A stretch of 64,000 bases of DNA from contig JAHDFD010000007.1 of NCBI GenBank assembly GCA_020628375.1, forward strand, positions 1 to 64,000. Reading direction: 5' to 3'. Positions 10,349-64,000 of the stretch are shown here, in pieces. The notes under the pieces were generated by a model, which had not been told where the DNA came from, searched no databases, and saw only the letters and a program-made list of their open reading frames with translations. The DNA is from Chitinophagales bacterium. Its GTDB lineage: Bacteria > Bacteroidota > Bacteroidia > Chitinophagales > UBA2359. Position numbers and translations under genes: made by a program. The first letter of the stretch is position 1; every line of letters starts with the position of its first letter.

Positions 10349-10359
10349 AGACCTGAAGT

Positions 10360-11460
10360 TTATTTATTCAGTATCTCTTCAAATACTTCTTTTTCTCTTG
10401 AAAAAACAGGGTTCTTGTATTTCACGATCATCAACCCCCTTTGAAATCTATCGTTCTTCACTTCTATGTGTTTCTTTGCCATGTATTCATGCACCCAATC
10501 GCTTTTGAATGAAGGTATGTGAAGGTCTGTATTTGCCCATTGTCCTATATTTTCCTGATTCAATCGTTTTCCATTTGCATTGTATTTAGTAAAGTAAGCG
10601 TAATCGCTTCTACCTGTATATAATGCAAACGATAAATTCATTGGATATAAGTTAAAAATATAGAGTGCCGGAAGTATTAAACAAACTAAAGTATAAGCAC
10701 CAAGTGCAGGAAAAAATTGAAATGTGCTTGTTTGTTGCTTGTATGCCCTGTATAAACACCAAACCATAACCGGAGACAATATATTCCATGGATAAACGAT
10801 AAAGTTCCAGCCACTGCCCCAGGGGCCAAGAAAGAAAAGTATAGAGGTGTGAAATAGTATTGATAAATAAAAAGCATATTTTAATCTCTTACGAGTAAGT
10901 ATTAATATGCCAAGTGTAATTTCAGTAATTATAGGAATTGCCGATAAATATTTGATATCTGATAAAGCTTCGGTGAATTCATAGGTATTCATAAACCAGG
11001 GATAAACCGCATCATAAAAGGCAAAATTTATTTTATGTAAACCTGCCCATAGATAGGTTCCACCAATTATGATGATAAACAGTTGAATCCGTTGATGCTT
11101 TTTGCTTACTAACAATGGTGCAATCAATATCAAAAGAGATTGATATACCCATATTTGAAGCCGATGAATATCGGTCAGGATAAAAAAGGCTAAGATGAGT
11201 GAGCTTATCAAAATCCATTTTTGTTTTTCGGAAGAAAGAATTAATCCCAACAAAAAAAACGTAAAAGCTATAAGGAGTATAAAGTCTATTGTTTGTGGAA
11301 TTTCAAAAGGAAGAATAGGAACTTTATAAAAACTTCGCTCTATACCTGACCATAATTTATAAGAACAAAATACCATAAGTAGTAAGTTAATCCCGGCAAT
11401 AGATATGAATGCCTGATCACTTTTCCATGGTTTGAATCCTGTATTTTTAAGTATGTCCAT
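10360..11460 (-). CDS. Polytopic membrane protein, distantly HTTM/VKGC-like
   Basis: The 366-residue product has about eight membrane helices and a soluble C-terminal tail of about 80 residues. The segment WAGLHKINFAFYDAVYPWFM followed by a helix with LFHTSILFFLGPWGSGWNF recalls the HTTM fold of vitamin-K-dependent gamma-carboxylase relatives, but I cannot place it firmly. It runs convergent to the glycosyltransferase gene. Function unknown. Confidence 0.5.
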   Translation of the reverse strand: MDILKNTGFKPWKSDQAFISIAGINLLLMVFCSYKLWSGIERSFYKVPILPFEIPQTIDFILLIAFTFFLLGLILSSEKQKWILISSLILAFFILTDIHRLQIWVYQSLLILIAPLLVSKKHQRIQLFIIIIGGTYLWAGLHKINFAFYDAVYPWFMNTYEFTEALSDIKYLSAIPIITEITLGILILTRKRLKYAFYLSILFHTSILFFLGPWGSGWNFIVYPWNILSPVMVWCLYRAYKQQTSTFQFFPALGAYTLVCLILPALYIFNLYPMNLSFALYTGRSDYAYFTKYNANGKRLNQENIGQWANTDLHIPSFKSDWVHEYMAKKHIEVKNDRFQRGLMIVKYKNPVFSREKEVFEEILNK

Positions 11461-11769
11461 AGCTTATAATAGAAGTTGATAGTATTCTCAATATTTGTGT
11501 TTAACTGTAAATAAACACCATTGTAATATGTTAAGGTAGTATCAAAAATGATGTCAGCTTTTATTTATGCTGCTTATTTTTAAATTCTTTTTGATGAGTT
11601 GTTTGCAAAGCATTGGGTTTCAATTTATAGAAAATTAAATGTACTCTTAAAACATTAGGGCTGCTTATACGTAATAGTATTGGTGATCTTGATATGATTT
11701 TTTCCATATTAAGGTGTATGACGTCCTTATTTGATAGAAGGGTCTTTACATTTTGAACATACTATTAAT

Positions 11770-11777
11770 TACCTTTG
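11770..11777 (+). promoter_or_regulatory. -7 element of the M42 peptidase gene
   Basis: TACCTTTG matches TAnnTTTG fully and ends 8 bp before the ATG at 11786. Transcription would begin almost at the start codon, giving a near-leaderless mRNA. It also argues against a TTG start at 11753, because that start would lie upstream of the promoter. Confidence 0.55.
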
Positions 11778-20000: not shown

Positions 20001-23000
20001 GGCGATTATGTATTGATCGTTACCGATGCAAATGGTTGCGATAATGCACCAGGCGTTCCGATTATTTGTGAAGAAGAACTTACTTGTGCAATCAATCTTA
20101 CAGAGTCTTTTACTTGTAATGATGATGGTACTTTCTCTGTAGAAATTACTTTTGAAGGAGTTGGAACTTATTCTATAGAAGAGCCTGGAAGTGGCGTAAA
20201 CTTAAGCGGACAAGCTTCTGGAACTTATACTTTCGATTTTAATGCAGGTGATAGTTATAACTTCACAGTTAGCAGTGAAGAATTAGAAGACTGTTCGGAA
20301 TCAGTTGCTAATACACCATTCTGTTGTACACTCGATGCCGTTGCTGAAGTTCAGTGTATTGGAGTTAATGGCTTTATCGTTTCTTTTGAAATTGTTGGTG
20401 ATGGGACATATACAGTTGATGATGGAGATGGAACTATTTTAACTGGCGTTTCTGCCGGACAATTAACCGTTGGAAGCCCTTTTCCGAATGGTGCCTATAA
20501 CATAACTATAACAAGTGAATCAAATCCTGAATGTGAACAAGTGCTTTCAGGAGAGCAAGATTGTTTCGATTGCAACCTTGCTGTTACCGCCGATACAGAG
20601 TGTATTGATGTCTTTAATTTTAATCTCGATCTTATTATTAACGGAAGTGGAACATTTACCGTTGATGATGGAATCAATCCGATTCAAACAGGGGTAACTG
20701 CTGGAAATGTAACAGTAGGTACTTACCCTAATGGAGCATACAATGTAATCGTAACTAGTGAATTGGATAGTGAATGTTCAGAAACAGTTTCAGGAAGTGA
20801 AGATTGCTTCGAGTGTGATCTGAATATAGAGGCTACAACTACTTGTATTGATGATCTTAATTATGAATTGACCTATACAATTTCCGGCTCAGGAACTTAT
20901 ACCGTTGAAGATGGTATCAATGGAACTCAAACCGGAGTTGCAGCCGGAACTTATACGGTTGGTGTTTTATCTAACGGAGATTATTCAATCGTTGTTACAA
21001 GTGAATATGATGATACTTGTACACAAACAGCTTCTGGTTCTGAAGATTGTTTTGTTTGCCCATTACCTGTTTCTGCTCAGGTAAACTGTTTGGATAACTT
21101 TACTTATGAGGTGTCATTTACTTTAACAGGTGATGGGACTTTCTCGATTGGTGATGGTATCAATCCGGTTCAGTCTGGTTTAACTGCTGGTGATTACACG
21201 ATAGGACCATTCGATAATGGGGCTTATAACATCATTATCACAAGTGAAGACGATGAAACCTGTACACAAACCTTAAGTGGTGAACAAGATTGCTTTGAAT
21301 GTGATCTGACAGTCAATGTAAATACAACTTGTCTTGACCTTGGAAACTATAGTTTGGAATACACAATCTCTGGTATTGGAACTTATACAGTTGATGATGG
21401 AATTAATCCTTTACAAACAGGCGTTGTGGCAGGAACATATACAATAGCTTCATTGCCAAATGGAACATATAATATTATTGTAACAAGCGAAGAAGATGAA
21501 ACTTGTACAGAAACCGCATCGGGTAGCGAAGATTGTTTCGAGTGTGAATTGAATATTACGCCAACCGTTGTTTGTAATGATGATGGCTTAGGCTTCACAG
21601 TATCTTATGAAATCATAGGTAGTGATTCTTATACAGTTGAAGATGGCATAAATGGAACACAAACGGGTGTTACTGCTGGAATTTATTCAGTAGCTTATCC
21701 AAATGGTGCTTATTCAATTGTAATCACTTCAGAAACGAATAATGAGTGTACACAAACATTAAGTGGAGATCAGGATTGCTTTGAATGTGATTTGACAGTT
21801 AATGTAAGTACATCATGTTTAGACTTAGAAAACTATAGTTTAGAATACACCATTACCGGAACAGGAACTTATACCGTTGATGATGGCATCAATCCACTTC
21901 AAACAGGCGTTGTGGCAGGAATATATACAATAGCTTCATTGCCAAATGGAACATATAATATAATCGTAACAAGCGAAGAAGATGATACTTGTACGGAAAC
22001 AGCTTCTGGTAGTGAAGATTGCTTTGAGTGTGAATTGAACGTTACGCCGACAGTTGTATGTAATGGTGATGGCTTAGGCTTTATAGTATCTTATGAAATC
22101 ACAGGCAGTGATTCTTATACGATAGAAGATGGGATAAATGGAACACAAACAGGTGTAACTGCCGGAACTTATACAGTAGCTTATCCAAATGGTGCTTATT
22201 CAATTGTAATCACTTCAGAAACAAATGAAGCATGTACACAAACCTTAAGTGGTGAACAAGATTGCTTTGAATGTGATCTGACAGTCAATGTAAATACAAC
22301 TTGTCTTGACCTTGGAAACTATAGTTTGGAATACACAATCTCTGGTATTGGAACTTATACAGTTGATGATGGAATTAATCCTTTACAAACAGGCGTTGTG
22401 GCAGGAACATATACAATAGCTTCATTGCCAAATGGAACATATAATATTATTGTAACAAGCGAAGAAGATGAAACTTGTACAGAAACCGCATCGGGTAGCG
22501 AAGATTGTTTCGAGTGTGAATTGAATATTACACCAACTATTGTTTGTAATGAAGACCTGACAGGTTATACTGTAACTTATGAGGTAACAGGCAGCGATTC
22601 TTACACAGTAGAAGATGGTATAAATGGAACACAAACAGGTGTAACAGCCGGAACTTATTCAGTAGTATATCCTAATGGTGCTTATTCAATTGTAATCACT
22701 TCAGAAACAAATGAAGCATGTACACAAACCTTAAGTGGTGAACAAGATTGCTTTGAATGTGATCTGACAGTCAATGTAAATACAACTTGTCTTGACCTTG
22801 GAAACTATAGTTTGGAATACACAATCTCTGGTATTGGAACTTATACAGTTGATGATGGAATTAATCCTTTACAAACAGGCGTTGTGGCAGGAACATATAC
22901 AATAGCTTCATTGCCAAATGGAACATATAATATTATTGTAACAAGCGAAGAAGATGAAACTTGTACAGAAACCGCATCGGGTAGCGAAGATTGTTTCGAG

Positions 23001-26000
23001 TGTGAATTGAACATTACACCAACCATTGTTTGTAACGATGATCTGACAGGTTATACAGTTACGTATGAAATCACAGGCAGCGATTCTTACACAGTAGAAG
23101 ATGGTATAAATGGAACACAAACAGGTGTAACAGCCGGAACTTATTCAGTAGTATATCCTAATGGTGCTTATTCAATTGTAATCACTTCAGAAACAAATGA
23201 AGCATGTACACAAACCTTAAGTGGTGAACAAGATTGCTTTGAATGTGATCTGACAGTCAATGTAAATACAACTTGTCTTGACCTTGGAAACTATAGTTTG
23301 GAATACACAATCTCTGGTATTGGAACTTATACAGTTGATGATGGAATTAATCCTTTACAAACAGGCGTTGTGGCAGGAACATATACAATAGCTTCATTGC
23401 CAAATGGAACATATAATATTATTGTAACAAGCGAAGAAGATGAAACTTGTACAGAAACCGCATCGGGTAGCGAAGATTGTTTCGAGTGTGAATTGAACAT
23501 TACACCAACCATTGTTTGTAACGATGATCTAACAGGTTATACTGTAACGTATGAAATTACAGGCACTGATTCGTACATAGTAGAAGATGGTGTAAATGGA
23601 ACACAGACAGGTGTAACTGCCGGAACCTATTCAGTAGTTTATCCAAATGGTGCTTATTCTATTGTAATCACTTCAGAAACAAATGAAGTATGTACACAAA
23701 CACTAAGTGGCGAACAAGATTGCTTCGAATGTGATCTGACAGTTAATGTAAGTACATCATGTTTGGATTTAGAAAACTATAGCTTAGAATATACAATTTC
23801 CGGTATTGGAACTTACACTGTTGATGATGGAATCAACCCGCTTCAAACAGGCGTTGTAGCCGGATCTTATACAATCAATTCATTGCCAAATGGCGCTTAC
23901 AATATTATCGTTACAAGTGAAGCTGACGAAACTTGTACAGAAACAGTTTCAGGTTCTGAAGATTGTTTCGAGTGTGAACTGAACATTACGCCAACAGTCG
24001 TATGTAACGAAGACCTGACAGGTTATACCGTAACTTATGAAATTACAGGTATTGATTCCTATATTGTAGAAGATGGCGTAAATGGAACGCAGACAGGCGT
24101 AACAGCAGGAACCTATTCAGTAACCTATCCAAATGGAGCTTATACGATCGTAATTACTTCAGAAACAAATGAAGCATGTACACAAACCTTAAGTGGTGAA
24201 CAAGATTGCTTTGAATGTGATCTGACAGTCAATGTAAATACAACTTGTCTTGACCTTGGAAACTATAGTTTGGAATACACAATTTCTGGTATTGGAACTT
24301 ACACAGTTGATGATGGAATTAATCCTTTACAAACAGGCGTTGCGGCAGGAACTTACACGATCAGTTCAATACCAAATGGTACTTACAATATAATCGTAAC
24401 AAGTGAAGCTGATGAAACTTGTACAGAAACAGTTTCAGGTTCTGAAGATTGTTTCGAGTGTGAATTGAGTATTAATCCAGCACTTGATTGTAACGAAGAT
24501 TTAAGTGGCTACACAGTAACTTATGAAATTACGGGTAGCGATTCTTACATAGTAGAAGATGGTATTAACGGAATTCAAACAGGTATAACCGCCGGAACTT
24601 ACACTGTTGCTTATCCTAATGGTCCTTATACGATCGTAATAACTTCAGAAACAAATGAAGCATGTACACAAACCCTGAATGGAGAACAAGATTGCTTTGA
24701 GTGTGATTTGATCGTAAATGTAAATACTGAATGTGTAGATCTATTAAATTATAGTTTAGAATATACCATTACTGGAACTGGAACATTCTCTGTCGATGAT
24801 GGAATTAATCCACTTCAAACAGGAATTGTAGCAGGAACATATGCTATCGATTCATTGCCAAATGGCGCTTATAATATCATTGTAACTAGTGAAACAGATG
24901 AAACCTGTACCGAAACAGTCTCAGGAAGCGAGGATTGCTTCGAGTGCGAATTGCCAGTAGAATCAGTAATTACTTGTAATGATGATGGAAGTGGTTTTTC
25001 TGTGAATTATATTATTACTGGAAATGATTTTTATACAATAGTTGATGGAGTAAATGGAACGCAGACAGGTGTAACTGCCGGAACTTATACAGTAGCTTAT
25101 CCTAATGGCGCTTATTCAATTATAATTACTTCGGAAACAAATGCTGAATGTACACAAACATTATCTGGAAGTGAAGATTGTTTTGAGTGCGGTTTGCTTG
25201 TAACTTCTACAACCAACTGTATTGATGATTTCTCTTATAATGTATTTGTCAATATAGCAGGAAACGGAACTTATACTGTTGATGATGGAATAGGTGGTAC
25301 CCTTACAGGTGTTTCAAATGGTAACCTTATTTTAGGACCATACCAGAATGGTGCATATACTATTATTATTACTAGTGAGGTTGAGGCAGAATGTTCAGAA
25401 GTAATTAATGTTAATGAAGAGTGTTCAGAACCTCCTGTTTGTGATGTTACTGCATCAGCAAACACGGTTTGTTTGAATGATGATAGTTATGAAGTAATAT
25501 TGAGTTTGGGAGGTGTAGGCACATTTACCATCGATGATGGCATAAACCCAGCTCTAACGAATCAGGTAGCAGGAACGATTACCTTAGGTCCTATTCCTAA
25601 TGGAAATTATACAATAATTATTACTAGTGAAGCTGATCCGAATTGTTCTATTCCAATTAGTGGTCAACGCGATTGTGCACCAGATATTCCTTGTGATATT
25701 TCTGCTATTGCTGCAACAGGTTGTGTAGATTTTGATTCTTTTGAATTATCTGTAGAATTAACAGGGTCGAGTACTTATACTTTAACCGACGGAGTGAATG
25801 TAATAAATGGCGCAAGTTCTGGAACTATTGTTCTTGGAACATTACCAAATGGTGGATATACGCTCACCATTACCGACGAATTGAATGACGAATGTACCGT
25901 TACTTTAAATGGAAATGAAGATTGTACAGGAGAAATTAATTGTGATGTAACTGTTGAAGCAGAAGTGCAATGTATCAGCAATGCCGAATACATTGTTGAT

Positions 26001-52555: not shown

Positions 52556-54649
52556 ATGTCAGCTAAATATTTAGTTACATCGGCATTACCTTATGCCAAC
52601 GGGCCACTTCATGTAGGACATTTGACAGGAGCGTATATTCCTGCAGATATTTATGTGCGTTACCTACGAATGATGGGGGAAGATGTACTATTTATTTGTG
52701 GTTCTGATGAACATGGAGCGGCTATTACATTGCGTGCTAAAAAAGAAGGGATAAAGCCGCGTGATATTATCGATAAGTATCACCCGATCAATAAAGATTG
52801 CTTTGAAAAATTAGGTATTGGCTTCGATAATTATCATAGAACTTCGGCTGAATTACATTACCAGACGGCTTCCGATTTTTTTCTGAAATTAAGTGAGAAA
52901 GATGTATTTAACGTAAAATTATCTGAACAATATTACGATGAAGAATTCGGACAATTTTTAGCAGATAGATATATTACCGGAACTTGTCCTAAATGTGATT
53001 TTCATAGTGCTTATGGCGATCAGTGCGAGAATTGTGGTTCGGATCTGAGTCCTACTGAACTCATCAATCCTAAATCAACCTTGAGTGGTGCAACACCTGT
53101 TTTGAAAGAAACAAAGCACTGGTATTTACCAATGGATAAACTACAAGATTGGGTAAGTGAGTGGATAGAAAAACAGAATAAAAGCGAAACATGGAAAAAA
53201 CACGTTTACGGACAATGTCAGAGTTGGCTGAAAGCCGGCTTGCAGGAACGTGCCATGACCCGCGACCTCGATTGGGGAGTGCCCGTTCCGATAGAAGGAG
53301 CTGACGGAAAAGTATTATATGTTTGGTTGGATGCCCCTATTGGGTATATTTCTGCAACGAAAGACCTGACTGATAATTGGGAGGATTACTGGAAAAATGA
53401 AGATACCAAACTGGTACATTTTATAGGAAAAGACAATATTGTTTTTCATTGTATCATATTCCCTATTTTATTGCATTTACATGGCGAAGGTTTTATACTT
53501 CCAACGAATATTCCGGCTAATCAATTCATGAATCTGGAAGGAGATAAAATGTCAACTTCTCGTAATTATGCGGTTTGGTTACACGAGTATCTGAGTGATT
53601 TTCCTGATAAACAAGATGAGTTACGTTATTATTTGACAGCCAATATGCCGGAAAATAAAGACAGTGATTTTTCATGGCAGGATTTTAAAGAAAAGAACGA
53701 TAAAGATCTTGTTGGTTTGTTAGGTGGCTTTGTTCATAGGACTTTGGTCTTGATCCAAAAGAATTTTGAAGGGAAATTGCCAGATAGCGTTAATGATGTT
53801 GCCGGAGAAACGGTTCAAAAGGAAATAGATCATGTACATAAGGTATTAAATGATTTACCTGAAGTTATTAATAAAAGTATTCATAATTATGAATTTCGCA
53901 ATGGACTGAATGAAGTATTGAATATTGCCAGAGAAGGAAATCGTTTTTTAAATGAAACAGAGCCCTGGAAATTACTTAAAACCGATAAGGAAGAAGGGGC
54001 AAAAGTATTGGCAACTTGTTTGGAAGTTGTATCACTTTTAGCTGTTTATTTAGAACCTTTTATTCCTTTTTCAGCCGATAAGATAAAAGCTTTTCTGAAT
54101 TTTAATGATAATGATAAAAGCGAAATACTAAAAGGGAATTATACTGTTTTCAGAACAAGAAAAGTAAATCAACCAGAACACTTATTTACCCGTTTCGATT
54201 TAGATGCTTACAAGAAAGAAGGAAAACAAGTTTTTAAAACGATGGAAGCTGCATTGAAGGCAAAAGAAAATGCGATTGCAGAAAGTACTCCGGCAGTAAC
54301 GAAATCAATTGCTCCAATAAAACCGTTGATCGAATACGATGATTTCGCTAAATTAGATATTCGCATAGGAACAATTCTGGAGGCTGAAAAGCTGAAGAAG
54401 TCAAAGAAGCTATTGAAACTACTTGTCGATATTGGTATAGAAAAGCGACAAATACTATCGGGTATTGCTCAGGTTTATGAACCCGAAACTTTAATAGGGA
54501 AAAAAGTAGTTGTTCTAGCAAATCTTGCACCTAAGAAAATGGCTGGCGCAGAAAGTCAGGGTATGATCTTAATGAGTGATACGAGTGAAGCCTTTACGTT
54601 TATTAATCCAGAAGGGGAAGATTCGCCGAATGGAGCGGCAGTGTCTTAA
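52556..54649 (+). CDS. metG: Methionyl-tRNA synthetase with C-terminal tRNA-binding domain
   Basis: The 697-residue class I synthetase has the HIGH-type motif HVGH (about residue 18), a zinc knuckle with CPKC...CENC (about 142-163), the KMSTS motif (DKMSTSRN, about residue 332), an anticodon-binding helical domain, and a C-terminal EMAP/Trbp111-like domain (about 595-697, FAKLDIRIGTILEAEKL). It charges tRNA-Met for initiation and elongation. The appended domain and the length match the E. coli-type dimeric enzyme. It is a single gene. Confidence 0.97.
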   Translation: MSAKYLVTSALPYANGPLHVGHLTGAYIPADIYVRYLRMMGEDVLFICGSDEHGAAITLRAKKEGIKPRDIIDKYHPINKDCFEKLGIGFDNYHRTSAELHYQTASDFFLKLSEKDVFNVKLSEQYYDEEFGQFLADRYITGTCPKCDFHSAYGDQCENCGSDLSPTELINPKSTLSGATPVLKETKHWYLPMDKLQDWVSEWIEKQNKSETWKKHVYGQCQSWLKAGLQERAMTRDLDWGVPVPIEGADGKVLYVWLDAPIGYISATKDLTDNWEDYWKNEDTKLVHFIGKDNIVFHCIIFPILLHLHGEGFILPTNIPANQFMNLEGDKMSTSRNYAVWLHEYLSDFPDKQDELRYYLTANMPENKDSDFSWQDFKEKNDKDLVGLLGGFVHRTLVLIQKNFEGKLPDSVNDVAGETVQKEIDHVHKVLNDLPEVINKSIHNYEFRNGLNEVLNIAREGNRFLNETEPWKLLKTDKEEGAKVLATCLEVVSLLAVYLEPFIPFSADKIKAFLNFNDNDKSEILKGNYTVFRTRKVNQPEHLFTRFDLDAYKKEGKQVFKTMEAALKAKENAIAESTPAVTKSIAPIKPLIEYDDFAKLDIRIGTILEAEKLKKSKKLLKLLVDIGIEKRQILSGIAQVYEPETLIGKKVVVLANLAPKKMAGAESQGMILMSDTSEAFTFINPEGEDSPNGAAVS

Positions 54650-54727
54650 TGATACCTAATCAAGCTCAAAAAAATGTAATTCTGAACTTAAACCACTCCA
54701 GATAAGAACCATTTCTGGCTACTTATG

Positions 54728-54735
54728 TATTTTTG
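54728..54735 (+). promoter_or_regulatory. -7 element of the first T9SS-secreted paralog
   Basis: TATTTTTG matches TAnnTTTG and ends 21 bp before the ATG at 54757. Confidence 0.45.
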
Positions 54736-54756
54736 AACTGAATTAATCTTTTTGAG

Positions 54757-55950
54757 ATGAAAAAGTATATGCTTCGATGTTTATCGATAGTCTTTTTTTC
54801 CTTTGTTTATACGAATGCACAGATCGTAATTGAGCCTTCCGATCTTCCACAGGAAAATAAAAGCGTAGAAATAGCAGTCAGCGACGGATTTGGTTTTGAC
54901 TTGGGTGTACCTTCAGAAGAAGAACAAAGCTGGGATTTTTCTTTCCTGCCTTTTGTTGAAAGTAAAACATTCAGTTTGCAAACTTCCGATGATTTCTTAG
55001 GTAGTTATGCTTTCCCTGAGGCAACAATGGCACAAACAACACCTTTTGCCGACGTATTGGGCGTTTCATTGACCTATTTGGTCGATCTGCCTATCAATCT
55101 TCCTGATGCTAATGTTTTTTATGGTTTGAATGAAGAAGGAAGTGTCAACTTTCAGGGCATATTTACCGACTTCGATATTGAAGGAGCAACCGATGGTGAT
55201 ACAGCGAGTATTGCACTCGAACCACCTTTCAACTACTATCCGATCGGAACATTAGGTGATACGATCAAGAACCAGTCGAGCTTTTTCTTTAAAGTTCCGG
55301 TTGACCAGGATCTTGTAGATATTTTATTAGGAACGGGTTTCGATCTGGAAGGCTTGGGTATTTCACTGGAAATATTAGACGCTGGTGTAACAGTTAATGT
55401 TGCTAATACCGTTGAAATAGATGCTTATGGAAACTTAACAACGCCTAAAGGAGAATACGACGTTTTGCGTTTTAACGAAACCATGTTCTTAGATGTAAGA
55501 ATTAATGCTTTTTTAGGGTTGCTGGACTTAGGAGAAGTATTCAATACGAATGCAGTTGTTAAGCAATTTCGTTTTTGGGCTAAAGAACTTCATCATCCGG
55601 TACTTACAGTAGTCGAATTCGATGAACAAGGAGGAACAAGTACATTGTCTGTAGAATATATCAATGAAGAACAGGAAATAGAAGAACCGCCTGTTACGAG
55701 TATCGAAAATAATATTTCAGCCAATTGTAAGGTATATCCCAACCCGGTTAGCAACCTTTTGTTAATCGAATTACCCGACACATGGAGCAATGCCACTGCG
55801 TGTTTATTCGATATAAATGGAAAACTTATTCTAACAGAAAATGTAAATCAAATTGATAACATCGAAGTTGATGGTCTGAATAGTGGAATGTATTTTCTTG
55901 AATTAAGTGCCAAAGGTGAAACTATAAATAAAACCTTTCTGAAACAATAA
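54757..55950 (+). CDS. T9SS-secreted protein, paralog 1
   Basis: The 397-residue product has a signal peptide (about 1-21, ending YTNAQ), a beta-rich domain of about 290 residues (WDFSFLPF, FYGLNEEGS, NYYPIGTLGDT, EIDAYGNLTTPKGEYDVLRF), and a T9SS type-A tail (about 322-397, CKVYPNPVSNLLLIELP, LFDINGKLI). It has no catalytic motif that I recognise. The next gene encodes a clear paralog. Confidence 0.8.
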   Translation: MKKYMLRCLSIVFFSFVYTNAQIVIEPSDLPQENKSVEIAVSDGFGFDLGVPSEEEQSWDFSFLPFVESKTFSLQTSDDFLGSYAFPEATMAQTTPFADVLGVSLTYLVDLPINLPDANVFYGLNEEGSVNFQGIFTDFDIEGATDGDTASIALEPPFNYYPIGTLGDTIKNQSSFFFKVPVDQDLVDILLGTGFDLEGLGISLEILDAGVTVNVANTVEIDAYGNLTTPKGEYDVLRFNETMFLDVRINAFLGLLDLGEVFNTNAVVKQFRFWAKELHHPVLTVVEFDEQGGTSTLSVEYINEEQEIEEPPVTSIENNISANCKVYPNPVSNLLLIELPDTWSNATACLFDINGKLILTENVNQIDNIEVDGLNSGMYFLELSAKGETINKTFLKQ

Positions 55951-55952
55951 CC

Positions 55953-55974
55953 CAACCTCGACTATGCTCGGTTG
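55953..55974. repeat. TTCGACTRYGCTC-type core with complementary arms
   Basis: CAACC (55953-55957) and GGTTG (55970-55974) enclose the core TCGACTATGCTC. The core is nearly that of the repeats at 46858-46927, but the arms differ. It directly follows the first T9SS paralog. Confidence 0.55.
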
Positions 55975-55984
55975 CAATAGATAA

Positions 55985-56032
55985 ACAACTCATTAACTCT
56001 TAAACTCATTGACTCAATAACTCAATAACTAA
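55985..56032. repeat. Degenerate AACTCAATA minisatellite
   Basis: Units of 9-11 bp (AACTCATTA, AACTCTTAA, ACTCATTG, ACTCAATA, ACTCAATA) run up to 5 bp before the start of the second paralog. They occupy the position where its leader would be. Confidence 0.6.
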
Positions 56033-56036
56033 ACAA

Positions 56037-57446
56037 ATGAAATACATTTACTTACTAATATTATGTTGCTTTGCTTATCATGTAGAAGCGCAGATTACCA
56101 TAGATTCAAACGATTTACCGCAGGCTGGAATAATTCATACACTTGCAGTAGGAAATGGTAATCTGGTTGACTTAGGAACAGCTTCAGCAGATGCACAAAC
56201 ATGGGATTTTACAGCAATGACACCTTTTGCTATTAAAGAATTTAGTTTTAATGAAGCTGAAGAGTTAGCAGGTTTTGAAGATTATCCCAATGCAATTATG
56301 GGAAGAACAACTCCATTATTAGATGCGCTGGGCGTTTCTTTGGGCGGTTTGTTGGCTTTGCCGATACCATTACCGGATGCTAATTCATTTTATGGGAATA
56401 ATGCCGAAGGAGGTCTTGATTATTTAGGTATTCATACCAACTTGAATATTGAAAGCATATTAGAAGGTGATTCTGCAAGTATTACAGCAAATCCACCTTT
56501 GAATTTTTATCCTACCGGAACTTATGGTGATAATATTTCAGGAAGTACGGAGTTGTTTTTATCTGCACCGGTTAACGAAAATATTGTTGACCTGATAGGA
56601 GCAGATGATATCGATTTAGATTCTTTAGGTTTAGATCTATCGATCATTGATGCCGGGATTTTAATCGAAGTTGATAGCGATGTTAATATCGATGCATACG
56701 GAACGCTGAATATTCATAATGCTTCTTATGAAGTACTTAGATTTAAAGATGATCTGAATGTTAGATTATCGGTTGGCGCTTACTTAGGTCCTATTCAGTT
56801 ATTGAATTTGATAGATACAACCGTTGTTGCAACACAGTACCGCTTTTGGGCGAAAAACGAAAATCAGCCAGTTGTTACTATGTTGGAACTATTTCAAGAT
56901 GGTGCTTTATCGATTGTTTCAAGTGAATTTTTATACACACCTAGCCCATTGAATGCCGATTTTATCTGGGAGCCAACTTCTAATGGTTCAGCTATCATTC
57001 AATTCAGTGATAATTCACAAGGCGATGGTCTGACTTATTCATGGGATTTTGGTGATGGTTCAACTAGTATGCAACCCAATCCGATACATAACTATCAAAT
57101 CGAAGAAGATCAGAATTTTACAGTAACCCTAACGATTACCGATCTGTTAGGAAATTCAACAACAACAAGTGAGTTGGTTTCAATAATCTTTACTTCTGAA
57201 GAAAATTTGAGCTTATCAGAATTTAACTTATTTCCGAATCCTGCAAGAGATATGGTGAATGTAGAATTACCAAGCAATTGGCAGCAAGCACAAGTGCGTA
57301 TTTTCGATATGAACGGAAAATTGGTGAGTACGGAATATGTGAATAATAATGAACGGTTTAATGTATCGAAACTACCAAGTGGAAATTATAGTGTAGAATT
57401 CAATAATGGTAAAGAAAGCATAAGTAAGCAGTTAATTATTGAATAA
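56037..57446 (+). CDS. T9SS-secreted protein, paralog 2, with PKD domain
   Basis: The 469-residue product has a signal peptide (about 1-18, ending YHVEAQ), a beta-rich domain homologous to the neighbour (WDFTAMTPF, FYGNNAEGG, NFYPTGTYGDN, NIDAYGTLNIHNASYEVLRF), then a PKD domain (about 305-385, YSWDFGDGSTSMQPNPIHNY), and a T9SS tail (FNLFPNPARDMVNVELP, IFDMNGKLV). The PKD domain accounts for most of the size difference. Tandem duplication followed by domain gain or loss is the simplest explanation. Confidence 0.82.
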   Translation: MKYIYLLILCCFAYHVEAQITIDSNDLPQAGIIHTLAVGNGNLVDLGTASADAQTWDFTAMTPFAIKEFSFNEAEELAGFEDYPNAIMGRTTPLLDALGVSLGGLLALPIPLPDANSFYGNNAEGGLDYLGIHTNLNIESILEGDSASITANPPLNFYPTGTYGDNISGSTELFLSAPVNENIVDLIGADDIDLDSLGLDLSIIDAGILIEVDSDVNIDAYGTLNIHNASYEVLRFKDDLNVRLSVGAYLGPIQLLNLIDTTVVATQYRFWAKNENQPVVTMLELFQDGALSIVSSEFLYTPSPLNADFIWEPTSNGSAIIQFSDNSQGDGLTYSWDFGDGSTSMQPNPIHNYQIEEDQNFTVTLTITDLLGNSTTTSELVSIIFTSEENLSLSEFNLFPNPARDMVNVELPSNWQQAQVRIFDMNGKLVSTEYVNNNERFNVSKLPSGNYSVEFNNGKESISKQLIIE

Positions 57447-57456
57447 CTCAATTCCC

Positions 57457-57478
57457 GATTTGGTCGCCTGACCAAATC
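57457..57478 (+). terminator. Hairpin after the second T9SS paralog
   Basis: GATTTGGTC and GACCAAATC form a perfect 9-bp stem with loop GCCT, 10 bp after the stop codon. There is no T-tract, so termination is likely but not certain. Confidence 0.5.
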
Positions 57479-57517
57479 AACCAGTTTAACGATCCACAGT
57501 CCACAAAAAATTAACAT

Positions 57518-57606
57518 AGAGTTTTGTGGTCTGTTGACCATCGACTATCGACTTTTTGTAAATCCCTGAATAAGATTGACGGTTGCAATTTATCATAATT
57601 GAAGCT
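57518..57606. repeat. Decayed relative of the GTGGACAGT...GTTGAC repeat
   Basis: GAGTTTTGTGGTCTGTTGACC, then further on GGTTGCAATTTATCATAATT, are recognisably related to the copies at 42970 and 52409 but with an insertion between the halves. Confidence 0.4.
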
Positions 57607-57646
57607 GAGCTAATAAACACATAGAAATATTTATTGTTATTTATTC

Positions 57647-58066
57647 ATGATTCATACACTCGATCACGAAGTCAATACTGGTTTTCTTTCAGATGAACAT
57701 AAACAAGAACTGGGTGCCTATTCATTGTGGCAAAGCCTTAAAATGGGCGGAGTCGGTTCACCTAAGCTACAATATTTGAATGGTATTATTCCTTTCGATA
57801 CTTTATCGGAAGAGGGTACAGATTTACTTCAGATCAATTTTGAATTGACAAGAAATGCCTTACTCATTCGTGCATGGCAACATGGTGATTGCTTCATAGC
57901 TTACGTTTTTTGGAAAGATATTAAAATGATTCGTTTTTATAAGGAAAATGAGCTACAATCCGATTTAAAAGATGGAAACCAAATTCGGTTTAAAATGGGT
58001 GTAGGAACCAGAGCAGGGTTTAGGAAGTTCTTCGCTAAGTCGCCAATTCAGTTATCGACTAATTAA
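57647..58066 (+). CDS. Hypothetical protein
   Basis: The 139-residue product has no signal peptide or membrane segment and appears to be mixed alpha/beta (LSDEHKQELGAYSLWQSLKMG, LLQINFELTRNALLIRAW, CFIAYVFWKDIKMIRFY). I do not recognise a family. It lies 38 bp ahead of the ABC-F gene, but that gene has its own promoter-like element inside the gap. Confidence 0.6.
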   Translation: MIHTLDHEVNTGFLSDEHKQELGAYSLWQSLKMGGVGSPKLQYLNGIIPFDTLSEEGTDLLQINFELTRNALLIRAWQHGDCFIAYVFWKDIKMIRFYKENELQSDLKDGNQIRFKMGVGTRAGFRKFFAKSPIQLSTN

Positions 58067-58092
58067 TTCACTATTAACACCCTTCAAGACCT

Positions 58093-58100
58093 TAACTTTG
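58093..58100 (+). promoter_or_regulatory. -7 element of the ABC-F gene
   Basis: TAACTTTG matches TAnnTTTG and ends only 4 bp before the ATG (TTTG-CACC-ATG). This would give an mRNA with almost no leader. Confidence 0.55.
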
Positions 58101-58104
58101 CACC

Positions 58105-60075
58105 ATGATTGCTATCGAGAACTTATCTATTCAATATGGCGGACGTACTTTGTTCGATAAGCTGAATTTTGTAGTTAAAACAAAAGACCGTATTGGCTTG
58201 GTGGGAAAGAATGGAGCCGGGAAATCAACTATGCTGAAGATCATAATGGATTTACAAGCACCCGATGAAGGAAATATTGCCATGCCTAATGGGACAACTT
58301 TTGGTTATCTCCCTCAGGATCTTGCAGTAACTTCAACGAGAACTGTAATTGATGAAACCGCACAGGCTTTTTCTGAGATCAATAAGCTGAAAGAGCGTTT
58401 CGATAAGTTGACAAAAGACCTGGAGACCAGAACAGATTATGAGTCTGAAGCTTATCAGCAATTATTGAATAATTATAGTAATGTTCAGGAACGACTTCAG
58501 TACTTAGGTGAGGGAAATATGCGTGCTGAAGCTGAAAAGATTCTGAAAGGTTTAGGTTTTGAAAATGGTCAGTTCGATCGTCCAATGAATACCTTTAGTG
58601 GAGGATGGCAAATGCGCGTTGAATTGGCTAAGATCCTTCTGGCGCAACCCGATTATATTTTACTCGATGAGCCTACCAACCATTTGGATATTGAATCGAT
58701 CATTTGGCTCGAAAACTTTCTTAAAAAGTATCACGGCGGAATATTGCTGATCTCGCACGATCAACGTTTCTTAGATACTGTTTCTAATAGAACCATTGAA
58801 TTGGTAAACGGGAAACTATATGATTATCCGGTAGCCTATTCCAAGTTTCTGGAACTGCGTGACAAGCGAAGGGAAAAGCAGATTTCTGAAAAGAAGAAAC
58901 AGGAAAAATTCGTAGAACATACCGAAACCCTTATCAATAAATTCAGAGCAAAAAAGAATAAAGCGAAGTTTGCACAAACCTTAATTAAAAAACTCGATAG
59001 AATAGAAGAGATTGAGGTAGATGATCTGGAAACTGCTAAAATAAATTTCCGTTTTCCACCTGCACCACGTTCGGGTAAAATTGTGGTGAAGACCGATGCT
59101 TTACATAAACACTACGATACTTTACATGTATTGAATAGTATTGATCTTGAGGTAGAGCGTGGCGAAAAAATTGCTTTTGTTGGAAAGAATGGCGAAGGCA
59201 AAACAACGCTTTCTAAAATAATTGCAGGAAAAATAAATTCAACAGGTGGTGATTGTGAATTAGGACATAATGTAAGCATTGGTTATTACGAGCAGCATCA
59301 GGCTGAAACTTTAGATCCCAAGAAAACAGTATTTGAAACGATCGATGATGCCGCTACTGGTGAAATAAGGCTGAAAGTCAGGAATTTACTAGGTTCTTTC
59401 CTGTTCAGTGGTGAAGATGCTGATAAAAAGGTAAGTGTACTTTCTGGTGGTGAAAAATCACGATTAGCAATTGCCAAACTCTTATTGGATCCGGTTAATT
59501 TACTCATTCTCGATGAGCCTACCAATCACCTCGATATTCGTTCTAAAGAAATTCTGCAACAGGCAATACATAACTTTGAAGGCTCGGTGATCATCGTTTC
59601 TCACGACAGAGCTTTTCTGAAAGGCTTAACCGACAAAGTGTATGAATTCCGCAATCGAAAAATAAAAGCCTACTTTGGTGATATTGATGATTTTCTCGAA
59701 AAAAGAAAACTAGATTCTTTAGATGACCTTGATCTGAAGAAAGATGATGCACTTAAAAAGTCGTATTCTGAAATTGATAATTCAGCCATTGCTGAAAAGC
59801 AGGTAATAAAACGCTCGGCTCAGGAACAGCGTGAACACGAAAAGTCGATTAAACGTTTGAAAAATAAGATCAATAAAATAGAAAAAGAAATTGATGCTTT
59901 AGAGACGCGTAAAGCTGAAATTGAGGGTTTGATGAATGATCCTGACTTTTATAATTCAAACCCCAATGCAGAAAAACTAATGACAGAACATGTTTCTTTA
60001 AAACAACAAATTAAAACAACTGAAGAAACCTGGGAAGAATTGGCTTTTGAAATGGAAGAACTTGAAAATAGTTGA
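58105..60075 (+). CDS. ABC-F family ATPase
   Basis: The 656-residue product has two ABC domains and no membrane part. Domain 1 has Walker A GKNGAGKST (about 34-42), signature FSGGWQMR and Walker B YILLDEPTNHLD. Domain 2 has GKNGEGKTT, LSGGEKSR and LLILDEPTNHLD. A charged linker (about 245-300, RDKRREKQISEKKKQEKF) joins them, and a coiled-coil C-terminal domain (about 550-656) resembles Uup. ABC-F proteins act on the ribosome E site. No antibiotic-resistance subtype is indicated; a housekeeping translation role is more likely. Confidence 0.93.
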   Translation: MIAIENLSIQYGGRTLFDKLNFVVKTKDRIGLVGKNGAGKSTMLKIIMDLQAPDEGNIAMPNGTTFGYLPQDLAVTSTRTVIDETAQAFSEINKLKERFDKLTKDLETRTDYESEAYQQLLNNYSNVQERLQYLGEGNMRAEAEKILKGLGFENGQFDRPMNTFSGGWQMRVELAKILLAQPDYILLDEPTNHLDIESIIWLENFLKKYHGGILLISHDQRFLDTVSNRTIELVNGKLYDYPVAYSKFLELRDKRREKQISEKKKQEKFVEHTETLINKFRAKKNKAKFAQTLIKKLDRIEEIEVDDLETAKINFRFPPAPRSGKIVVKTDALHKHYDTLHVLNSIDLEVERGEKIAFVGKNGEGKTTLSKIIAGKINSTGGDCELGHNVSIGYYEQHQAETLDPKKTVFETIDDAATGEIRLKVRNLLGSFLFSGEDADKKVSVLSGGEKSRLAIAKLLLDPVNLLILDEPTNHLDIRSKEILQQAIHNFEGSVIIVSHDRAFLKGLTDKVYEFRNRKIKAYFGDIDDFLEKRKLDSLDDLDLKKDDALKKSYSEIDNSAIAEKQVIKRSAQEQREHEKSIKRLKNKINKIEKEIDALETRKAEIEGLMNDPDFYNSNPNAEKLMTEHVSLKQQIKTTEETWEELAFEMEELENS

Positions 60076-60101
60076 ACACGAAGATCTTTTTACAATTGAA
60101 A

Positions 60102-60701
60102 TTAAGGTTTGGTGGGAGGATCAAAAACCCCTTCATAAATTTCTGAAAGTGGAAGAGCAATTTCTAAACAACTGATTTGTAATAATGCTCTTTCTCCTTC
60201 AAACGATTGAAGCAACCAAATATCTTTGTCCTCTTTTCTTGAAAAAATATCTACTTTTATCTCATCCTGGTGAACGATGATATATTCATGCAAAGATTTA
60301 ATGCTTCGGTATAATCTGAACTTGGTGCCATAATCATAATCGTAAGAGCTTTCGGAAACCACCTCAACGACCACTGTAGGATTGATAACGGCATTCTGAT
60401 CTTTTTCTGCTGTTTCTATTTTACCACAAACAACACTTACATCCGGCATTAAATAGCTATTTTTTTTATCGATCCATATTTTTAAATCTGAATTAAAAGC
60501 ATTACAAGTTTTATCTTTCAGTTTTGTGGCAATGGCAACATTAACTCGGCTACTTATCAAACTATGCACAGGTGTTCCTCCGGCCATATATCTGATTTCG
60601 CCATTCAAATACTCTGCTCTGATTTCTGATTTCTCAAGAATATTCAAATACTCTTCTGTACTGAACCACTCTTTTATATTATCATATTTAAGATCTCCCA
60701 T
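60102..60701 (-). CDS. Uma2 family (DUF820) nuclease-fold protein
   Basis: The 199-residue product has the PD-(D/E)XK-like residues of the family: Asp87 in LMPDVSVVC, Glu113 in VVVEVVSESS and Lys127 in YGTKFRLYR. The N-terminus RAEYLNGEIRYMAGG is also typical. Members are very common in cyanobacteria and some Bacteroidota and have no clear biological role. It converges on the ABC-F gene, with 26 bp between stops. Confidence 0.85.
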   Translation of the reverse strand: MGDLKYDNIKEWFSTEEYLNILEKSEIRAEYLNGEIRYMAGGTPVHSLISSRVNVAIATKLKDKTCNAFNSDLKIWIDKKNSYLMPDVSVVCGKIETAEKDQNAVINPTVVVEVVSESSYDYDYGTKFRLYRSIKSLHEYIIVHQDEIKVDIFSRKEDKDIWLLQSFEGERALLQISCLEIALPLSEIYEGVFDPPTKP

Positions 60702-61162
60702 TATTCAAGTAAGTTAACTAATGTAAAAGTAAGCTAAAAAGTCTTTGTGCTTATGGATAAAAAAGTTAATAACTAGCTGTATTCTGTTTATAACAAATAC
60801 GATTTATTGAACAGCTCTTATGAATAGGCATTAAATTTGTACTGTAAAGATTGAAACGGATCATTTATTGTTCGTCTTAATTTGCACTGAAAAGGAGCGT
60901 GTTTTAATGTTTTAAATAAAATTATAATCCACCACTTTTTTGAGATTGAAAATAGCGTATTCAAGCCAAGCATTTCTCATCCGATACGCACATTTTTCCC
61001 TCCTTCACGTGCTGACATATTAAGTAATTTGATCCTTAGTCTCGTTGTAAATCAGTTTGTTATGAATTGATTGTAATAGAAGTATATCTGTTTTAAAAAG
61101 ATATACAAGTGGCTATGTTATGATTAGCCTTGTGTTTATTAACTAACTAATTAAAATTTAAA
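60702..61162. other. 461-bp gene-free region upstream of the NYN-cold-shock fusion gene
   Basis: This is a divergent intergenic region without ORFs. TAGCCTTG at about 61126 is one base off the -7 consensus and would give a leader of about 30 nt. A loosely spaced AGCTGT/ACAGCT inverted repeat lies at about 60775-60816. Nothing else stands out. Confidence 0.4.
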
Positions 61163-63445
61163 ATGGCAAAGAAAAAAGATGCTAAAAAAGTTGACTTCAT
61201 AATAGATGCTACAAATGTTTGTAGCTGGCATAAAGTAAATATAAATAATCAAAGTAAGAATGCTGCTTATTCTACATCGCTGAATGTGATCTTAAAGCTG
61301 ACGAATGTGCTGTCTGACAAGAAAAAAACATTCAAATGTATTTTCGATGCAAGCACTCCTTATAAATTACCTGAAGAAGAACAGGAAATTTATCGCACAC
61401 TTTTACAGGTTTTTGAAAGAGCATTCTATCAGGTTACCGGAGGGCAAAAAGCCGATGACTGGGTGCTGGCTCTTGGAGACAAATTTGGAGCTAAAGTAAT
61501 CAGTACCGATCGTTTTCGTGATTTCCAGTCTCGATATAAATGGCTGGCAAATGAAGATGAAAGACTGGTGAAAGGAGGAATTATGGATATGATGGATGAA
61601 CTTACTATGGTTTTACCTTCATTGAACATAACCGAAAGTATCGTTGAGTCGAGTGAGCAGTTATTCATTCAGCTTGCAAAAAAAATGGGGCTTGAAAACA
61701 AACTTAGTTTTAAATCAACTGGAAGAATAAAGTCTTTTAATTCAGTTAACCAATATGGGTTTATTTATGCTACCGATACTAAAGAAGAAGTTTATTTTAA
61801 AGAAAGCGATTTTAAAATAATACCTGATATCCTTGTAAATTTCGATCTGTTTCGTGATGGTAAAAAGATCTTTGCCAAAAATGTAGTGCCCGTTATTGCT
61901 AAAGATGCAGATGCTTCAAACAGTAACAGAAAGGAAAATAAAAATAATAAAAAAGAAGACAAGGCAGACAAAGTAGAAGGGCAGGTTGAATGGTTCAATA
62001 CTGAAAAAGGTTTTGGCTTGATAAGCAGAAAAGATAAGGAGGAATCTTACATGTTCAAGCTAGATAATTTCAATACAGCTGAAGAAGAACCGAAACCAAA
62101 AATGAAAGTAATTTTCAATGTTCAAAGTAAAAACGGGAAATCGTACGCTTATAATGTTTGCAAAGGAACACTTGGTAAAAAACAAGATGCTGAAAAGGAA
62201 AAACCTGCCGCAGCGAATAGCAAAACCACTGATAATTCAGGCGAATTCAAACAGAAAGTAAGCTCCATTTTACCACAATTGAATATCAAATTGAACGGTA
62301 AGATCAATAATATTAAAGGGAGTTATGGCTTTATTTCTATGGAAGATGCAGATTCGGCTTTATTCTTTAAACTTGATGGGAAAGAAGATTTAAAGTCTGG
62401 TGACAAAGTTCAGTTTTTATTAGGTGTTAACGATCACGGTTTATTGGCTGTAGATGTGAGCCTGAAAAAGAAGAAGAAGAAACAAACAGTTAAAAAAGAG
62501 GAAGAGCCAAAAGAAGAGCAGACAACAAAGGCAGAAGTTAAAGAAGAGAAAAAGCCCCAACCAAAGCCTGCTGCACGTAAAACAACGAAAAAAGTAGTTG
62601 AAAAAGTTGAAGAAGCCAAAGTCGAGGAAAAAGCTGAAGTTCAGGAACAGGCAAAAGCTAAAAAAACGATTACGCTGAAAACTAAAGCTGCTGAAAATAA
62701 AGATACAGAAGAAAAGAAATCTACAACAAGAGCTAAAAGGAATTCTGCTAAAAAAGAAGAACCTACTGTGGCCGAAATTGTAGAAGAAGTTGTGCCTGTT
62801 GTTGAAAAGGAAGAAGTCAAAAGTCCTGTTAGTAGAAAAAGAACTGAGCGACAAACAAAAGCTGAGGCAACTGAGAAAACCAATAAATTGGAAGCTTTAC
62901 CAGGAGAGAAGCTAAGTAGACAGAAAAGAGGAGCAAGTGCTAAACGCTCTGTTGCTGGAAAACCTGTTGTAGAGAAAACTGTCGCAGAGAAGCCTGCCAC
63001 TGAAAAAACAGTAGTTGAAAATTCAGAACCGGAAATAGTAGAAGCTGAAAAGAAAGAAGCTGTAGAAGTGAAAAAAACGGCTGCAAGTAAAAGAAGAAGT
63101 ACTTCAGCTAAAAGCAGTACGCGTAAAACAACAACTAAAGCAAAACCTGTAGCTGAAGAAAAAGTAGCTGAAACCACAGAAGAAGCTAAAGTGGAAGAAA
63201 AGGTTGAGGAAAAACCTGTAGCTAAAAAAACGACTAGAGCAAAGAAAACGACAACGGCAAAAACGACTACAAGAAAAACAACTCGTAAAACAAGTGGAGC
63301 TACGAAAAAAGCTATTGCAACAAAACCGCGTAGATCTAGTACAAGAAAATCGACAAAATCTGTTGAAAATGAAAACCCTGTAGAAGAGCAAGGTAAGTTA
63401 GATCTGGAAGTCCCATTCATTGTTACGCCACCAGAAGAAGTGTAA
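61163..63445 (+). CDS. NYN/Zc3h12a-type ribonuclease fused to three cold-shock-like domains and a basic tail
   Basis: The 760-residue product has four parts. Residues 10-165 look like a Zc3h12a-type PIN/NYN nuclease, with the acidic residues Asp15 (FIIDATNV), Asp98/Asp99 (KADDWVLALG) and Asp116/Asp120 (STDRFRDF). Residues about 185-243, 271-333 and 376-434 are cold-shock/OB-like domains (GRIKSFNSVNQYGFIY, GQVEWFNTEKGFGLIS, GKINNIKGSYGFIS). Residues 435-760 form a Lys/Glu/Ala/Thr-rich tail whose end (TTRKTTRKTSGATKKA) resembles histone H1 or AlgP. It is probably a cytoplasmic RNA-binding endonuclease. The gene stands alone with a strong terminator. Targets are unknown; the fold call is by motif only. 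Confidence 0.75.
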   Translation: MAKKKDAKKVDFIIDATNVCSWHKVNINNQSKNAAYSTSLNVILKLTNVLSDKKKTFKCIFDASTPYKLPEEEQEIYRTLLQVFERAFYQVTGGQKADDWVLALGDKFGAKVISTDRFRDFQSRYKWLANEDERLVKGGIMDMMDELTMVLPSLNITESIVESSEQLFIQLAKKMGLENKLSFKSTGRIKSFNSVNQYGFIYATDTKEEVYFKESDFKIIPDILVNFDLFRDGKKIFAKNVVPVIAKDADASNSNRKENKNNKKEDKADKVEGQVEWFNTEKGFGLISRKDKEESYMFKLDNFNTAEEEPKPKMKVIFNVQSKNGKSYAYNVCKGTLGKKQDAEKEKPAAANSKTTDNSGEFKQKVSSILPQLNIKLNGKINNIKGSYGFISMEDADSALFFKLDGKEDLKSGDKVQFLLGVNDHGLLAVDVSLKKKKKKQTVKKEEEPKEEQTTKAEVKEEKKPQPKPAARKTTKKVVEKVEEAKVEEKAEVQEQAKAKKTITLKTKAAENKDTEEKKSTTRAKRNSAKKEEPTVAEIVEEVVPVVEKEEVKSPVSRKRTERQTKAEATEKTNKLEALPGEKLSRQKRGASAKRSVAGKPVVEKTVAEKPATEKTVVENSEPEIVEAEKKEAVEVKKTAASKRRSTSAKSSTRKTTTKAKPVAEEKVAETTEEAKVEEKVEEKPVAKKTTRAKKTTTAKTTTRKTTRKTSGATKKAIATKPRRSSTRKSTKSVENENPVEEQGKLDLEVPFIVTPPEEV

Positions 63446-63472
63446 CAATAAAAGACTGAAATTCTATTATTC

Positions 63473-63508
63473 AAAAGCGTCGAAGAAATATTCCTCGACG
63501 CTTTTTTT
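63473..63508. terminator. Strong intrinsic terminator
   Basis: AAAAGCGTCGA (63473-63483) pairs perfectly with TCGACGCTTTT (63495-63505) around an 11-nt loop, followed by further Ts. The preceding A-run makes it usable on both strands, between the convergent fusion gene and the small membrane protein. Confidence 0.93.
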
Positions 63509-63558
63509 ATGTTTTCAGCAAGCTAAAATCATAGATAGTACGAACCTATCGATCAATT

Positions 63559-63981
63559 TTATTCAAAAATTTCCTCTTTTACATAGCCATTCATCCTGTC
63601 ATCATTGCCTTTAATAAATGGTAGAATATGGAAAAATAAGCCAATTCCCCAAAAGAAAAGCACGCTTAAAACCGGAGCTATATTTACCACATCGAATGCA
63701 AGTGTCATCCACGCTAAACTAATAGTTCCCCATATTATATAAGATGCTGAATGAATGAAAATACCATTGTCAGACACATCGGAGTGTATGCCGTTTTGCT
63801 TACCAAAATGCCAACCACTGAAGAACATAGCAACAGCATAAGCAGATGAAGCGATCAGGAATACTATATTTCTATCAGCAGGACGCTGCATTGCCCAGTA
63901 AATTGCGCCATATAACAACATCGTTAGTGTAATTGCCGCAAGACAGAAGAGCCAGAAATATTTACTTATATATTTACTCAT
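63559..63981 (-). CDS. Small four-helix membrane protein
   Basis: The 140-residue product has four predicted membrane helices (about 8-30, 38-58, 78-98 and 103-122) with short loops and an acidic C-terminus (GYVKEEIFE). I do not recognise a family, and no charged or metal-binding residues inside helices suggest a function. It is the last gene in the window, with its start 19 bp from the right edge. Confidence 0.6.
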   Translation of the reverse strand: MSKYISKYFWLFCLAAITLTMLLYGAIYWAMQRPADRNIVFLIASSAYAVAMFFSGWHFGKQNGIHSDVSDNGIFIHSASYIIWGTISLAWMTLAFDVVNIAPVLSVLFFWGIGLFFHILPFIKGNDDRMNGYVKEEIFE

Positions 63982-64000
63982 GATATAGATTTACTGAATA

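Follow-up and report, generated by a model that had tools for sequence, protein, structure and literature searches.

A predicted Zc3h12a-type nuclease joined to three cold-shock domains and conserved in one family of Bacteroidota

The window, meaning the whole 64,000-nucleotide stretch of Chitinophagales DNA analysed here, comes from a genome of 3.3 Mb that is 69% complete. On its forward strand, one uninterrupted reading frame spans 760 codons from an ATG at 61163 to a stop ending at 63445; for this frame an initial annotation made from the sequence alone had proposed a Zc3h12a/NYN-type nuclease followed by three cold-shock-like domains and a histone-H1-like tail. This proposal raises the question of whether the parts of the protein are what they appear to be, and of what a protein built in this way might do in a bacterial cell.

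The nuclease domain and its active site

The N-terminal domain (residues 8-155; 61184-61627 (+)) was compared with Pfam, with the PDB by sequence profile and, as an AlphaFold2 model, with known structures by Foldseek and VIA-align. Taken alone, the window domain matches PF11977 (RNase_Zc3h12a) at 17.1 bits, below the Pfam cut-off of 23, and the congener L023 scores 31.1 bits, above it. Our set of relatives holds 20 sequences that combine NYN and cold-shock domains (NYN-CSD), the window copy among them, and PF11977 is matched by all 20 NYN domains at E<=0.1, the best value being 1.7e-8; NCBIfam matched none of the 20. A PDB search with the window domain as a single sequence returned nothing, and the ZC3H12 proteins were reached solely by a profile of all 20 rows. 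That profile found 12 sequences at E<=10, ten of which are ZC3H12A, ZC3H12B, ZC3H12C or KHNYN (6.1e-6 to 0.005, with KHNYN at 0.0035), while the two remaining rows have E values of 0.086 and 0.43. Against a profile of 18 rows, from which the window sequence and its congener had been left out, the window domain reaches 177.5 bits, compared to 11.8 bits for the highest-scoring of 2000 shuffled versions of its residues.

The AlphaFold2 model of the domain, made on the 20-row alignment, has a mean pLDDT of 87.7 and a pTM of 0.86. Foldseek placed ZC3H12A, ZC3H12B, ZC3H12C and KHNYN at ranks 1-22, followed by protein-only RNase P. In VIA-align the best match is MCPIP1/Regnase-1 (Z 13.4, rmsd 2.6, 131 residues), with KHNYN at Z 12.8 and PRORP2 at Z 12.3, the PRORP rows standing about 1 to 2 Z units behind ZC3H12. 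Because the PRORP2 value is so close to the ZC3H12 rows, the fold alone is compatible with a relation to PRORP; it is the sequence profile that separates the two, as no PRORP row appears in the PDB search at E<=10. From these profiles and the model, the domain is identified as a Zc3h12a-type NYN/PIN nuclease domain with a predicted fold to match, as the initial annotation had held.

The three motifs that had been put forward as the active site begin at residues 14 (IDATNV), 97 (ADDWV) and 114 (STDRFRD). According to the portions of PMC8306088 and PMC5362230 that deal with them, the catalytic acids of Regnase-1 are D141, D225, D226 and D244, and an inactive D226N/D244N mutant is in use in the part of PMC4772114 concerned. 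In our alignment D15 (codon 61205-61207 (+)) corresponds to Regnase-1 D141 and is invariant in all 20 relatives, D98 (61454-61456 (+)) corresponds to D226 and is likewise invariant, and D116 (61508-61510 (+)) corresponds to D244 and is D in 19 of 20. The placing of D98 at D226, where D225 is possible, comes from one gapped alignment in which the Regnase-1 numbers were derived from the construct. N18 and D62 are also invariant (20/20). Thus D15, D98 and D116 bear out the active site proposed earlier, and acids matching D141, D226 and D244 occur together in 19 of the 20 relatives. Asp99, which had been proposed for mutation alongside Asp15, does not fit a catalytic role, since just 12 of the 20 relatives have D at this position; of the two acids in the Regnase DD pair, the second is not conserved. 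Neither a fold other than PIN/NYN nor a lack of conservation of the acids, the two outcomes named beforehand as speaking against a nuclease of this type, was found.

The sole row without D116 is L037, which has N at this position. It is the second copy in genome G409 (9956-11773 (-)), and it has an acidic linker in place of a basic one; judged from its sequence, it is possibly an inactive paralogue.

Cold-shock domains, tail and C-terminal variation

Three modules follow the nuclease domain, and each was tested alone against Pfam CSD (PF00313), which has a cut-off of 27 bits. The first (residues 183-243; 61709-61891 (+)) scores 27.4 bits (E 3e-6), the second (residues 271-334; 61973-62164 (+)) 41.3 bits (E 1.4e-10) and the third (residues 377-434; 62291-62464 (+)) 27.3 bits (E 3.3e-6), so that all three pass, modules 1 and 3 narrowly. 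In an AlphaFold2 model of residues 1-440 (mean pLDDT 80.9) each is predicted as a five-stranded barrel, and the second aligns to CspA-type proteins with a Z of about 12. The pTM of this model is 0.51, and the relative arrangement of the domains is therefore not predicted by it. Cold-shock domains are matched in all 20 relatives at E<=0.01 and over the cut-off in 16 of them, the four below being L026, L033, L034 and L036. They occupy the place of the CCCH zinc finger, for which the window protein matches no Pfam family at E<=1.

The remainder of the protein (residues 440-760; 62480-63442 (+)) is a low-complexity tail that becomes basic towards its end. Its 321 residues include 65 K, 57 E, 43 T and 35 A, its pI is 9.7, and its internal repeats are weak. 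The likeness to histone H1 seen at first holds for this basic Lys/Glu/Thr/Ala composition and does not extend to histone identity, as the tail matches no Pfam family at E<=1, histone families included.

What the initial annotation had missed is a C-terminal domain of leucine-rich repeats (LRR_4, E<=0.01), which follows the disordered region in 12 of the 20 relatives (L028, L029, L031 and L033-L041; not L032), often after a stretch of the form WW..LE..WK.AFN. The window copy is without it, and the low-complexity tail forms the end of the protein in three of the 20, the window copy among them. Another C-terminal region, with no clear Pfam match, is present in L024, L025 and L027, the first of which includes a stretch of undetermined bases close to the C-terminus; contig ends truncate L026 and L032, and the 5' end of L037 is open. 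In a tree of the NYN domains, 6 of 17 inner branches are starred, a level of support too weak to date an LRR loss, and a loss in the window lineage is only the simpler reading of this pattern.

Distribution and genomic setting

Of 20 genomes from one bacterial family, 18 carry the NYN-CSD gene; these cover 12 of the family's 13 genera and 7 of its 8 good-quality genomes, and G406 and G409 each have two copies. In the two others, one of them 93% complete, the profile search detected no copy either, so the gene may not be essential. Among named relatives, 'Chitinophagales bacterium isolate MAG-147' is the closest, its nuclease domain being 67% identical. In the order outside the family, a single-sequence search matched 0 of 178 genomes and a profile search found a Zc3h12a-type gene in 2 of 356; among 394 other genomes drawn from the phylum, the profile detected one in 3. 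A PF11977 search of the order gave five genomes outside the family, one of which the profile had found as well. Since some genomes (G000 and others) were included in both the order and the phylum searches, the counts are not additive. A peptide-pattern scan outside the phylum, which sees close relatives only, gave one relative, L003, taken as the same contig as L004/L023. A further phylum match, G372/L002 (E 9.7e-4), covers 58 residues inside a 340-aa frame with a von Willebrand-like reading, and was taken as chance and left out of the counts.

Together these searches gave nine different Zc3h12a-type genes from outside the family (L044-L051 and L082). PF11977 matches eight of them, and L046 is matched by the NYN profile of this study alone. 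Their products are alike in nuclease type and differ from the window protein in layout, as the nuclease is C-terminal, preceded by a long stretch that looks helical or coiled, and none of the nine gave a cold-shock domain match. Two of them, L047 (G512) and L050 (G490), have an in-frame TAA mid-gene, which may stem from sequencing error, decay or another cause, and the two halves look like pieces of one protein. As far as these sequence searches reach, Zc3h12a-type nucleases are thus wider in Bacteroidota, while the fusion with cold-shock domains was found in one family only; the search for the same fusion across the phylum, as proposed earlier, yielded one family and no wide spread in the genomes covered.

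In the window, the gene lies between a gene (60102-60701 (-), before it) and an open frame (63559-63981 (-), after it) that both run on the opposite strand. A hairpin followed by a T run at 63473-63505 (+) resembles an intrinsic terminator (z -3.58) and is absent from the list of a simple pattern scan. Promoter-like sites were not above shuffle level, and an Rfam search of 54000-64000 gave no match. The gene directly before it encodes a Uma2-type putative nuclease (PF05685, 1.4e-32). Elsewhere in the window, an ABC-F ATPase at 58105-60075 (+) scores over the cut-off for NF000355, a model of ribosomal-protection-like ABC-F proteins, and one uninterrupted frame of 8386 codons at 14049-39209 (+), which resembles a giant repeat-containing protein, includes a 486-bp unit repeated about 8 times in tandem at 21253-25163.

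Several of the 20 loci are short, and among them no gene cluster is common to more than three, the NYN-CSD gene aside. The gene had no match in 72,556 plasmid and 50,697 phage records, nor in viral contigs scanned with two short patterns, and a mobile-element origin was rejected on these grounds. The lack of shared neighbours and of plasmid, phage or viral matches favours a resident gene with a housekeeping or regulatory role, and speaks against a mobile one for toxin or defence functions. The family genomes also hold RNase Y (20/20), RNase E/G (16/20) and RNase P RNA over the cut-off (13/20); the window's own incomplete genome has RNase E/G and RNase Y, with no RNase P RNA match. A stand-in for any of these three enzymes was accordingly rejected for the family, and from the counts of RNase Y and RNase E/G it follows that the NYN-CSD protein adds to the core RNases and does not replace them.

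Possible function and related systems

We propose, with a probability of roughly 0.6, that the gene is chromosomal and encodes a metal-dependent endoribonuclease which acts beside RNase Y and RNase E/G and in which the cold-shock array keeps single-stranded RNA in place for cutting. The NYN domain would cut single-stranded RNA with D15, D98 and D116. The three cold-shock domains, in the position that the CCCH zinc finger has in Regnase, would bind the RNA, open it and pass it on to the nuclease. The long disordered basic tail could provide extra RNA affinity or recruit partners, and in most relatives the C-terminal LRR domain might serve as the recruiter instead. For Regnase-1, PMC4772114 reports that RNA is bound more tightly with the zinc finger and that activity requires dimerisation of the PIN domain. 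The cellular role would most likely lie in general or stress-linked mRNA turnover or in RNA quality control, in line with the mRNA-decay or RNA-stress role that we, like the initial annotation, infer for the protein.

It is improbable that the protein is instead a nuclease for single-stranded DNA in repair or recombination. Cold-shock domains bind single-stranded DNA as well as RNA, and FEN-type nucleases follow further down among the fold matches (Z 6-8); the structural relatives of the NYN model with Z above 11, however, are RNases without exception. The relevant portion of PMC5943514 reports that MCPIP1 cuts DNA in vitro. Because of these properties of cold-shock domains and of MCPIP1, RNA is here a presumed substrate. 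Maturation of stable RNA (tRNA or rRNA), by an enzyme resembling the protein-only RNase P PRORP, is an unlikely role in spite of the PRORP2 score lying within about 1 of the ZC3H12 rows and of two of the nine outside-family genes matching PF16953 (PRORP) at E<=1e-4, both below the cut-off. The window protein itself has no PF16953 match at E<=1, the sequence profile favours ZC3H12 proteins, and 12 of the 13 family genomes with RNase P RNA over the cut-off also carry the NYN-CSD gene (G405 does not), so that there is no replacement of RNase P in those 12; a part in rRNA processing would be compatible with these findings.

A role without cleavage would make the protein an RNA-binding scaffold or chaperone, with the NYN domain used for binding or dimerisation. 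The variable second residue of the DD pair and the paralogue L037, with its N at position 116 and its acidic linker, would fit such a role, but the joint presence of the three Regnase-type acids in 19 of 20 relatives makes it improbable. NYN/PIN nucleases and cold-shock domains both occur in defence systems, and the cold-shock part of the protein matches a PADLOC cold-shock model (2.5e-12), which would suit a conflict element such as an anti-phage effector or a toxin. The PADLOC match is confined to the cold-shock domain, however, and does not include the nuclease domain, and the gene's presence in 12 of 13 genera, with no conserved partner gene and no match on plasmids, phages or viral contigs, renders this role very improbable.

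Several known RNases come closest to the protein. ZC3H12A (MCPIP1/Regnase-1), ZC3H12B and ZC3H12C, the proteins of PF11977, are like the window protein in nuclease fold and catalytic acids and are its best PDB profile matches; the window protein differs in being bacterial, in having cold-shock domains in place of the CCCH zinc finger, and in that its family keeps one conserved D at the D225-D226 pair. KHNYN also combines an NYN nuclease with an RNA-binding module, which in this eukaryotic protein is a KH domain and not a cold-shock domain. RNase II and RNase R differ in their catalytic domain, RNB, which has an unrelated fold, in their terminal S1 domain and in their domain order, yet they too have a nuclease and cold-shock domains in one chain, as described in a section of PMC4229858. 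The CRISPR-associated NYN ribonuclease of Bacteroides fragilis, from the same phylum, is an NYN endoribonuclease with three catalytic Asp and Mn dependence; it differs in being tied to type III CRISPR and is compared to MARF1 and VPA0982 in PMC11346440, from which the terms 'cold shock' and 'Zc3h12' are absent. A fusion of an NYN or Zc3h12a domain with cold-shock domains, which the initial annotation did not know to be described, was not found described in the literature searched either, though subscription papers lay mostly outside that search and an earlier mention is possible. The protein joins known domains in an architecture not seen elsewhere here and conserved in one family.

More tentatively, and with the balance against it, the protein could be a scaffolded mRNA-decay factor resembling RNase E, possibly condensate-forming, that evolved separately in one Bacteroidota family, with cold-shock domains replacing the Regnase zinc finger and a basic arm ending in an LRR recruiter in most members. 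Zc3h12a-type nucleases are best known from the control of immune mRNAs in vertebrates, and one is now predicted in a conserved bacterial protein with cold-shock domains. The family thus offers a bacterial model for the steering of such a nuclease by RNA-binding modules, and with cold-shock domains standing where Regnase has its zinc finger, what the RNA-binding module contributes can be tested directly. For the organisms themselves, the protein may be a further endoribonuclease in a lineage that has retained RNase Y and RNase E/G as well.
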